37,215 nt of DNA, from positions 1 through 37,215 of the forward strand of contig ONIL01000039.1 in the NCBI GenBank assembly GCA_900317835.1, written 5' to 3'. The translations under genes were made by a program, and so were the position numbers. Each line of letters starts with the position of its first letter. Position 1 is the first letter of the stretch. Below, one piece after another: positions 5,298 to 20,878 of the stretch. Origin of the DNA: an uncultured Prevotellaceae bacterium (GTDB lineage Bacteria > Bacteroidota > Bacteroidia > Bacteroidales > Muribaculaceae). Under the pieces are notes generated by a model. It did not search any database. It was not told the origin of the DNA and saw only the letters and a list, made by a program, of their open reading frames with translations.

Positions 5298-7382
5298 TCA
5301 GATGTCAAATTTCAGGATAAGTTTGTAATTGCGTCCTGGCATGGGGTAATTGAGGATGACGTCATAATACTGGTTGAACAGGTTGTTCACCTCGCCCGAT
5401 ACTTTGAGTGTCGTCTTACCCAAGTGGAACAAGTAGCCTGCCGAGAGGTCGTGGGTATACCAAGGCTGCTCATGATTCTCACGGGTATTGGCACTGGTGT
5501 GATATCTCTCCCCCACGTAGATGAAACTGTAGTTCACGTCAAGATCATGCCATCCCAAGTGACCAACAACCGAGCCGCTGTGCCACGGGATATAGGCCAA
5601 CTGGCCCTTGTAGGTGCCGCCATCGCCATTATCGGCAGGATTGGTGTAGTCTTGCGCCTTCTGGTAGGTATAACTCAAGTTGATGTCAAGGATGACATCG
5701 GCGGGCAAGCGCAATGTGGTGCGTGCGCTTACATCTACACCCTTAATCTTGACAATACCCACATTCATCATCATCCAGCGGTACTGGCCTGTGCCCTTGG
5801 GTACCGCGATAATCTTGTCAGTAATGTAATTGTAGTAGGCATCGGCACTGAGTTTGACACCGGCCAACAGGCCACGTTCGGCAAGCAGCCTGTAGAGGAA
5901 GCCCACGTTGTACTGGGTGGCATACTCGGGTTTGAGCGTGATGTTGCCCATGTCGGTGTAATACAGGTCGTTGAACGTGGGCATACGGAAGATGCGCTTG
6001 TAGTAGGCACGCACGTTGAATTCACGCTCCTGCCAGGGTTGCCAACTGAAGAACACGGCTGGCGTGACCTTATTCATATATTCACTCCTCTTGCCAACTA
6101 CCTGACCATTGAAGCGGGCCGAGGAGCGGTCGTTGACCATCGTGTAGAGCAAGCTTCCCTGTAACTTGAAACCATGCAAGGAATAAGCCGTCGCCAGGGC
6201 AGTGAGCACCGTGTGCCGGATAGGATAAACAAAGCCTGTCAACGTGGCGTCAAGGCTATTCCACTGGTAGTCCACCGATAGATTGACATCCCAATCGGTG
6301 AGAATGGTATATTTGTTGGCGGTAGAGAGATATATCTCATCCTGCCAGAACTTGTTGTCGATATACATCAATGTCGTGTCAGGATTCAGATAATGGAGAT
6401 AGTCACGTGAGTACTTGGCATTAAACATCATCTCGTAGCGGTCACTAAACTTGCGCTGGTACGCCCCCTGAAGGAAGAAATTGCTGTCCCACTGCTTTTG
6501 GGCATGCTTCCACACGTTATTGACAATGGCGCCGGGAATGCCCTTGCTGCTGTCATACCAATAGGCCTTGGCATGCCACTTTCCACTGCTCATCACGCCA
6601 AACAGACCTCCTTCAAGACGATAGGAGCGGACCTCGCCATTCCGGCGCACGGCAGTCGTGTCCCATGCCAGCGAACCGTCGCTATAGTGACGCATATAGC
6701 GGAAGCGGTACTTGCCAGTGGCATAAGTATACTCGCTGTTGAACGAAAGGCTCACCGATCGGCTCAATTTATGCTCCCATCGGATGCTGGGATTGATGAG
6801 CCCGAAAGACCCCGTCTTTAACGTCACGTTGAAGTTGTCGCGTTTGCCGTCCATGAATTTTGGACGACGAGTGCGCAGGTAAATAGTACCTGCCGAGCCA
6901 TAGTCACGGGCACTTTGGAAAATGTTACTGCGTTGGCCGTTATAAAGCGAGATGGCTTCGATGTTGTCAAGCGAGAATTTGCCCAAATCAACCTGCCCGT
7001 TTTGTGCATTGCCCACTTGAATGCCGTCATAGAAGACGCCCATGTGGTTAGTGCCCATCGAGCGGATATCGACGGTCTTCAATCCGCCCACGCCGCCGTA
7101 ATCCTTGAGCTGAACACCTGCGAAATAGCGAACGGCATCGGCCACCGAGTGGCTGTTGAGACCCTCGAGTTGCTTGCCTGTGAGTTCCTGAGCGGGGATG
7201 ACGTCCTCAAAGGGACGCCGGCCATAGATGATGACATTCTGGATATATTGCATTGAGTCCAGTCGCCCGTGACCCACTGGAGCCATGACCGAGTCGGCCT
7301 GGTGCGCAAGCACACCTTCCTGTGCTTTGACACACAAGACACACAGCAAGGTCAAGAATGATGTAATTACAAATGTTCGCAT
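5298..7382 (-). CDS. btuB: TonB-dependent outer membrane cobalamin receptor, BtuB-like
   Basis: This 694-residue protein has a signal peptide (MRTFVITSFLTLLCVLCVKAQ) followed by a TonB-dependent receptor plug domain at about residues 50-165. Characteristic plug motifs are VADAVRYFAGVQLKDYGG, VDIRSMG and the IEAISLYNG segment. The remainder is a 22-strand type beta-barrel with alternating aromatic strands, ending in the hydrophobic strand NYKLILKFDI. It lacks the SusC-type N-terminal CarboxypepD-like extension, which fits the smaller BtuB/siderophore class. A cobalamin riboswitch fills its 5' leader and a BtuG-like lipoprotein follows 2 bases downstream, so the substrate is very probably a cobamide. 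The inner-membrane BtuCDF transporter is not in this window. Confidence 0.88.
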   Translation of the reverse strand: MRTFVITSFLTLLCVLCVKAQEGVLAHQADSVMAPVGHGRLDSMQYIQNVIIYGRRPFEDVIPAQELTGKQLEGLNSHSVADAVRYFAGVQLKDYGGVGGLKTVDIRSMGTNHMGVFYDGIQVGNAQNGQVDLGKFSLDNIEAISLYNGQRSNIFQSARDYGSAGTIYLRTRRPKFMDGKRDNFNVTLKTGSFGLINPSIRWEHKLSRSVSLSFNSEYTYATGKYRFRYMRHYSDGSLAWDTTAVRRNGEVRSYRLEGGLFGVMSSGKWHAKAYWYDSSKGIPGAIVNNVWKHAQKQWDSNFFLQGAYQRKFSDRYEMMFNAKYSRDYLHYLNPDTTLMYIDNKFWQDEIYLSTANKYTILTDWDVNLSVDYQWNSLDATLTGFVYPIRHTVLTALATAYSLHGFKLQGSLLYTMVNDRSSARFNGQVVGKRSEYMNKVTPAVFFSWQPWQEREFNVRAYYKRIFRMPTFNDLYYTDMGNITLKPEYATQYNVGFLYRLLAERGLLAGVKLSADAYYNYITDKIIAVPKGTGQYRWMMMNVGIVKIKGVDVSARTTLRLPADVILDINLSYTYQKAQDYTNPADNGDGGTYKGQLAYIPWHSGSVVGHLGWHDLDVNYSFIYVGERYHTSANTRENHEQPWYTHDLSAGYLFHLGKTTLKVSGEVNNLFNQYYDVILNYPMPGRNYKLILKFDI

Positions 7383-7410
7383 TACACAAGTTACGGGTTT
7401 CTATGTTTGC

Positions 7411-7590
7411 GACTTGGCAGGTCTTCTGACTCGCCCCACCCCATTGTTGACACTTGACCTTCCCACGTCGTGGCGCAGTGGTCAAGTGCGGGAATTTCGT
7501 TAGGAGGCACACAGCAGCACCGTCTGTCCAGGATTCCCACCTGGTTCCCTTTTCACCCGAGGCCTAAGCCTCCAGGCACCAAATCTCGCC
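7411..7590 (-). promoter_or_regulatory. Cobalamin (adenosylcobalamin-type) riboswitch
   Basis: Read on the minus strand, the leader begins with GGTGCCTGGAGG, continues with GGTGAAAAGGGAACCAGGTG, GAATCCTGGACAGACGG and GCTGCTGTGTGCCTCCTAACG, then ACCACTGCGCC (B12-box region) and closes with the hallmark GAGTCAGAAGACCTGCC at about 7416-7431. This order and wording match the cobalamin riboswitch family closely. The 3' end lies about 30 bases before the receptor start codon, so ligand binding probably blocks translation initiation or promotes early termination. It should repress the three-gene uptake operon when B12 is plentiful. Confidence 0.95.
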
Positions 7591-7591
7591 A

Positions 7592-7599
7592 CAAAGATA
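7592..7599 (-). promoter_or_regulatory. Promoter -7 box of the B12 uptake operon
   Basis: On the minus strand this reads TATCTTTG, a full match to TAnnTTTG. It would start transcription near 7585, at the very 5' edge of the riboswitch fold, which is the expected arrangement. No clear TTTG is seen at the -33 position, so the assignment rests on the -7 box and its position. Confidence 0.55.
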
Positions 7600-19411: not shown

Positions 19412-20503
19412 TTAGTCCTCGATGATACCGGTGATCTGACCAGAACCTACGGTGCGGCCACCCTCACGGATAGCGAAGCGCAGACCTTCACTGCAAGCAA
19501 CCGGAGTGATCAGCTTGACGTCGATCTCAACGTTGTCACCAGGCATTACCATCTCGACACCAGCGGGGAGCATGATCTCACCGGTTACATCCAGGGTGCG
19601 GATGTAGAACTGGGGACGATAGTGGTTGTGGAACGGAGTGTGGCGACCACCCTCTTCCTTCTTCAGGACGTAGATCGAAGCCTTGAAGTGATCGTGGGGT
19701 TTGATAACGCCCGGGTGGCAGATTACCATACCACGCTTGATAGTCTTGTAGTCAATACCGCGGAGCAGCAGACCAACGTTGTCACCAGCCTCACCCTCAT
19801 CGAGGATCTTGCGGAACATCTCAACGCCGGTAACTACCGACTTCATCTCGGCACCCAGACCCATGATCTGAACCTCGTCGCTCACCTTAACGACACCAGT
19901 CTCGATACGACCGGTAGCAACGGTGCCACGGCCAGTAATTGAGAAGACGTCCTCGATGGGCATCAGGAAGGGCTTGTCACGGTCACGCGGGGGCAGGGGA
20001 ATCCACTCGTCAACAGCGTTCATCAGCTCACGAACGGTATCCTCCCACTTGGGCTCACCCTGCAGGGCACCCAGTGCAGAACCACGGATGATGGGGGTGT
20101 TGTCACCATCAAACTCATACTCGCTGAGCAGGTCGCGAACGTCCATCTCTACGAGCTCGATCATCTCGTCGTCAACGTCGGGAGAGTCACACTTGTTCAG
20201 GAAAATAACCAGACGGGGAACGTTCACCTGACGGGCGAGCAGGATGTGCTCACGGGTCTGAGGCATAACGCCGTCAGTAGCAGCAACAACTACGATAGCA
20301 CCGTCCATCTGAGCGGCACCAGTAACCATGTTCTTTACATAGTCAGCGTGGCCCGGGCAGTCAACGTGAGCATAGGAAATGTCACCGTCCTTAGCCAGCA
20401 CGGTGGTGATAGCGGCGGTCAGGGTAGTTTTACCGTGGTCAACGTGACCAATAGTACCGATGTTAACATGCGGTTTTGTTCTTTCAAAATGCTCTTTTGC
20501 CAT
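19412..20503 (-). CDS. tuf: Elongation factor Tu with in-frame loss of switch I
   Basis: EF-Tu delivers aminoacyl-tRNA to the ribosome as a GTPase. This copy encodes 363 residues where about 394-396 are normal. The P-loop GHVDHGKT (19-26), DCPGH (48-52), NKCD and domains 2 and 3 (for example [37 protein letters not shown]) are intact. Between Lys38 and Tyr44, however, only DGDIS is found where about 38 residues are expected, including NAPEEKERGITIN with the G2 threonine. The frame is kept on both sides. Without switch I the protein should not hydrolyse GTP or bind tRNA correctly, so this is an assembly artefact, a degenerate copy or a real mutant. It is read from the tRNA-Tyr promoter. Confidence 0.93.
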
Positions 20504-20624
20504 AACTGTTTGTTGTTATTGAAATTGAATGATAATATTACTCTACTTTATTGCGTAATACACTCCACCTCTTGTGATAACTTTAACCCGCAATCAGTGA
20601 GAGGCGAAGCGTCTTACATCGTTG

Positions 20625-20696
<72 letters not shown>

Positions 20697-20714
20697 AATA
20701 AGTTTTGTTTCTTG

Positions 20715-20787
20715 AGCGGAAGACGGGGCTCAAACCCGCGGCCCTCAGCTTGGAAGGCTGATGCTCTATCAACTGAGCTACTTCCGC
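20715..20787 (-). tRNA. tRNA-Gly (anticodon TCC)
   Basis: The 73-base minus-strand sequence forms a complete cloverleaf with acceptor GCGGAAG/CTTCCGC, anticodon loop CTTCCAA with anticodon TCC, and T-arm GCGGGTTTGAGCCCCGT. CCA is not encoded. It is the second gene of the tRNA-tuf transcript. Confidence 0.96.
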
Positions 20788-20795
20788 AAAACATG

Positions 20796-20878
20796 TGGGT
20801 AGAGATGGATTCGAACCACCGAAGCGATGACGCAGCAGATTTACAGTCTGCCCCATTTGGCCACTCTGGAATCTACCC
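20796..20878 (-). tRNA. tRNA-Tyr (anticodon GTA)
   Basis: The 83-base minus-strand sequence has acceptor GGGTAGA/TCTACCC, anticodon loop CTGTAAA with anticodon GTA, and the long variable arm (GCGTCATCGCTTC region) expected of a class II tyrosine tRNA. CCA is not encoded. It is the first gene after the promoter, about 14 bases from the likely transcription start. Confidence 0.96.

Follow-up and report, generated by a model that had tools for sequence, protein, structure and literature searches.

EF-Tu is essential, and the threonine of its G2 motif coordinates magnesium. In a study of archaeal SelB-like proteins (aSelBL), the G2 threonine is described as binding the γ-phosphate, and the aSelBL appear as members of the EF-Tu family with deletions in the GTPase domain, making up an old, broadly distributed family with recognisable G2 and G3 regions (PMC3037878). 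The tuf gene analysed here likewise encodes an EF-Tu-family member with a GTPase-domain deletion, but its deletion is peculiar to one genome and the gene is in other respects an ordinary tuf. With bacterial EF-Tu (TIGR00485; Pfam GTP_EFTU, D2 and D3) its product shares a score above the equivalog cut-off as well as domains II and III, whereas 36 residues with switch I and G2 are absent and the GTP_EFTU match is split.

The window, that is, the whole stretch of 37,215 nucleotides that was analysed, belongs to an assembly (G000) of 3.07 Mb in 65 contigs, 96.37% complete and 0.44% contaminated. The features relevant to the deletion were the following:

19412..20503, minus strand: tuf, 363 amino acids, without switch I, and the sole EF-Tu gene that the assembly yielded (open frame; the only EF-Tu-level match in G000; TIGR00485 profile match in two stretches).
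20374..20375, minus strand: deletion junction between codon 43 and codon 44, where the closest congeners have a further 108 bp (36 codons).
20426..20449, minus strand: P-loop (G1), residues 19–26, intact in the sequence.
20348..20362, minus strand: G3 motif DCPGH, residues 48–52, intact in the sequence.
20186..20197, minus strand: G4 motif NKCD, residues 103–106, intact in the sequence.
20624..20878, minus strand: tRNA-Tyr, tRNA-Gly and tRNA-Thr, lying upstream of tuf and sharing 69% and 83% of 31-mers with the congeners G009 and G024.

Alignment with three close congeners, each with an EF-Tu of 399 residues, placed the deletion in a single block of 36 residues that follows residue 43 in the G009 reference. 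Reference residues 1–43 aligned to 20375–20503 and residues 80–399 to 19415–20374; codon 43 (20377–20375) abuts codon 44 (20374–20372), the junction fuses codon 43 with codon 80 of the intact gene, and the frame stays open without a stop. The last base of codon 43 fits either flank, and the position of the break is known to about 1 base. In this loop, many other congeners fall short of the reference by 1 or 3 residues. The missing part comprises switch I, the G2 motif RGITI and the sequence up to YAHVDCPGH. The preliminary description had claimed an in-frame loss of about 33 residues including switch I; the loss and its frame were confirmed, and its size was corrected to 36 residues, the estimate having been three codons low.

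The P-loop, DCPGH and NKCD of the window protein are among the invariant columns of the alignment, and the protein scored 620.8 bits against the TIGR00485 equivalog cut-off of 522.4. Domain II (PF03144) was found at residues 193–262 and domain III (PF03143) at residues 267–360, and the two-part GTP_EFTU match gave 154.6 bits versus 213.1 for an intact congener. Outside the gap the protein is 99% identical to that of G009, and the codons differ from those of G009, G024 and G019 by 1, 3 and 6 replacements and by 48, 47 and 43 synonymous changes, respectively. So few replacements beside so many synonymous changes speak against a copy that has decayed or been repurposed.

The tuf gene sits between the tRNA cluster and tRNA-Trp and is followed by frames that we take, by their resemblance, to be nusG, rplK, rplA, rplJ, rplL, rpoB and rpoC; the stretch is collinear with the tuf loci of G009, G024 and G019. 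When the window flanks were compared with G009, G024, G019, G020, G002 and G007, the nearest relative differed by stretch, with no clear switch at the junction. Elsewhere in the window, a cobalamin riboswitch (RF00174, 89.7 bits) was found at 7399–7598 on the minus strand, just upstream of a 694-residue frame (5298–7382) which we assume to resemble a TonB-dependent receptor.

The genus was represented by 101 genomes including G000, of which 69 gave an EF-Tu match at an E-value of 1e-16 and 32 gave none; the tuf stretches of all 69 were compared with the G009 protein. The gene was uninterrupted in 45 of the 69, the one-contig genome G043 among these, and cut or malformed in the other 24 with G000 counted (23/68 without it). 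A contig end lay inside tuf in 21 genomes, one of which (G079) also has an internal deletion, and three genomes (G000, G083 and G094) have a tuf that is uncut yet malformed. A nine-residue insertion in the G005 tuf was taken by eye as natural variation. The malformed tuf loci of the congeners (L078, L079, L084 and L015) are of several kinds: in G079 residue 89 is joined to 129, with 39 residues (90–128) lost; in G083 residue 97 is joined to 118, with 20 residues (98–117) lost plus six more near its end; G094 has a foreign-looking C-terminus; and G011, scored as uninterrupted, has a duplicated 5′ piece before the start and one repeated codon. Altogether, 24 contig ends fell inside tuf when the second or split genes of G005, G092 and G096 are counted, and 10 of these ends were in codons 67–110 (p 1.2e-4 versus an even spread, for an interval picked post hoc). 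The right edge of the window junction, codon 80, lies inside this interval. Comparison of the junction in related genomes, as had been proposed earlier, revealed no instance of the window's deletion among the 68 matched congeners, 55 of which span the whole stretch.

Two further observations concern tuf copies in the genus. G096 has two tuf–nusG stretches on two contigs (L090 and L092), one of them cut inside tuf, a sign that this bin may mix two related strains. Full-length but divergent, a second tuf of G103 lies on contig C9 (L081:1090-2937); its product matches the G009 protein at 88% identity and continues into a C-terminal extension of some 215 residues, in which repeats of about 50 residues can be made out by eye. 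A Pfam search of this extension returned no family at its cut-off. Parts of it match the ends of 500–660-residue frames in G024, G019, G112, G053 and G006 (6/101 genomes including G103), and to judge from these matches it looks like a swappable tail.

Control genes in the same 101 genomes, whose assemblies appear from contig numbers and completeness to be metagenomic, were broken less often. For rplA, matched in 68 genomes, two were clearly cut or split (G047 and G071) and three more had odd ends (G007, G094 and G096); the comparison of 24/69 cut or malformed for tuf with 2/68 clearly cut for rplA gave a Fisher p of 1.3e-6. At most one of the 65 nusG matches was broken (G004, two pieces within one frame), and rpoB, a gene about three times longer, was partial or split in 13/82 by reading of the rows. 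Breakage per length is several times higher at tuf than at the control genes. At E-value limits that differed between the searches, no match was obtained in 32 genomes for tuf, 33 for rplA, 36 for nusG and 19 for rpoB. Outright absence is no commoner for tuf than for the neighbouring genes.

The 31-mers shared with three congeners amounted to 25–27% in tuf, 4–11% in rpoB/rpoC and 25–46% in rplA/rplK. Shared words as the sole cause of tuf breakage were rejected, since rplA and rplK equal tuf in this respect and yet rplA seldom breaks. The adjoining tRNA cluster, with its 69% and 83% of shared 31-mers in the two congeners covering it, may contribute.

Similar lesions were sought in a scan of genome_contigs (84,980 species genomes) with a pattern that placed the EF-Tu P-loop and DCPGH 45–75 bases apart, the distance in intact congeners being 162–171 bases. 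On 46 loci used to check the pattern, 29 matched at 150–180 bases and the window locus alone at 45–75. Nine short-spaced tuf loci (L047–L055) were found, a number that is a lower bound because the pattern starts with an obligatory CAC codon; the scan may omit entries from the genome that holds the window or from genomes close to it, and its count is of short-spaced loci. All nine are titled as metagenome assemblies or uncultured bins, and they come from Gammaproteobacteria, Acidobacteria, Parabacteroides, Caldiserica, Prevotellaceae, Betaproteobacteria, Brevundimonas, Novosphingobium and Bacteroidetes, with spacings of 49, 58, 46, 61, 63, 75, 66, 61 and 73 bases. The frame is kept in three and shifted in six, and the joined sequences and breakpoints differ among them. 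Like the window tuf, these genes have lost a piece of similar size between P-loop and DCPGH in metagenome-derived contigs; unlike it, they have other breakpoints, belong to several phyla and are out of frame in six of nine cases. All six frameshifted loci have a spacing of 1 mod 3 and none of 2 mod 3.

The window deletion is very probably an error of the assembled sequence and the feature not real. This most likely reading is drawn from the comparison of assembled sequences. It is favoured because congener lesions concentrate around this site (10 of the 24 contig ends; the 90–128 and 98–117 deletions), because the nine short-spaced genes, all metagenomic by title, have varied breakpoints and mostly shifted frames, and because tuf is intact in most of the genus genomes with a match and the remaining codons of the window gene hold few replacements. 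The preliminary description had already put forward a misassembly or a variant collapsed from a mixed sample, and both readings gain support from tuf breakage across the genus and from the nine other metagenomic genes with similar but different deletions. We infer G000 to be a metagenome assembly from a sample that also contained congeners, and we would expect the junction to lack read support. The living cell would then have one ordinary full-length tuf. The gene and its adjoining tRNA cluster are highly similar in DNA among congeners; with several congeners in one sample, assembly paths would break or mis-join in this region, and the window contig would bridge one such break with 108 bp omitted. 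Conserved regions shared between strains are described as acting as inter-genome repeats that fragment assemblies (DESMAN, PMC5607848), and chimeric contigs are reported with short-read assemblers (PMC11261854). A literature search on tuf misassembly in metagenomic assembly found no paper.

Some of the data point the other way, among them the lack of a clear switch between congeners at the junction, the rarity of breaks in rplA at a similar level of 31-mer sharing, and a proportion of missing tuf no higher than for the genes beside it. Five odd indels were counted in the tuf genes of the genus (−108, −117, −60, −18 and +3 bp), two of them in one gene (G083) and with the duplicated piece before the start in G011 left out. 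All five are in frame, against an expectation of one in three (probability about 0.004 if treated as independent); pooled with the nine loci of the scan, 8/14 are in frame (one-sided p 0.058). Microhomology at the window junction, judged from congeners, amounts to at most about 1 base, and a simple mis-join at a shared word therefore does not explain the junction. The in-frame bias and the low microhomology would fit real non-homologous deletions better than such a mis-join. Together with the single-phase frameshifts, they keep a real minority allele in consideration, either a dead or dying haplotype or a mutation in part of the cells, chosen as the consensus by the assembler. Such an allele would account for the in-frame losses in the window genome and two other congeners and for a junction almost free of microhomology, as a real non-homologous event might leave it. 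We nevertheless regard it as unlikely: the gene is the sole copy found of an essential factor and should not reach the consensus, each of three species would have had to acquire a different deletion, and similar deletions occur in nine other metagenomic genomes, six of them frameshifted. Less probable still is a genus-wide version of the same thought, in which in-frame tuf loss alleles (36, 39 and 20+6 residues in three species) circulate and some of the cells keep an EF-Tu without switch I, no longer cycling GTP, beside a full-length copy that assemblers collapse.

A degenerate second tuf, its working copy absent from the 96% complete assembly, has in its favour the incompleteness of G000, the second divergent full-length gene of G103 and the second partial copies in G005 and G096. 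The search for a second tuf that had been proposed earlier was run on the whole G000 assembly and found none; the remaining matches to EF-Tu were 30–36% identical and lay in frames of 552–943 residues, as would be expected of related GTPases. The lost stretch, sought on the other G000 contigs, gave chance-level matches only (best E 0.007 over 34 bases). The window gene is also the one that stands beside the tRNA cluster, collinear with the tuf loci of three congeners, its other codons hold few replacements, and the one-contig genome G043 has a single, full-length tuf. The idea of a degenerate copy, raised in the preliminary description, is not supported and is very unlikely. Least credible is that the window protein functions, without switch I, as a relative of EF-Tu in some role other than the GTP-switched delivery of aminoacyl-tRNA. 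The open frame and the retained motifs and domains would agree with it, and the aSelBL show that the family can tolerate damage to the GTPase domain. Those proteins, however, retain a modified G2 and form an inherited family of their own (PMC3037878). The window protein would have to replace the sole EF-Tu found in its genome and its deletion recurs in no congener with a match.

An assembly error at this gene, the preferred explanation, has consequences beyond the window. With tuf cut or malformed in about one third of the genus assemblies that hold it (24/69), the gene is a practical hazard. G000 scores as nearly complete and clean, yet its in-frame error passes the EF-Tu family cut-off, and readings of novelty from single assemblies need checking against reads.
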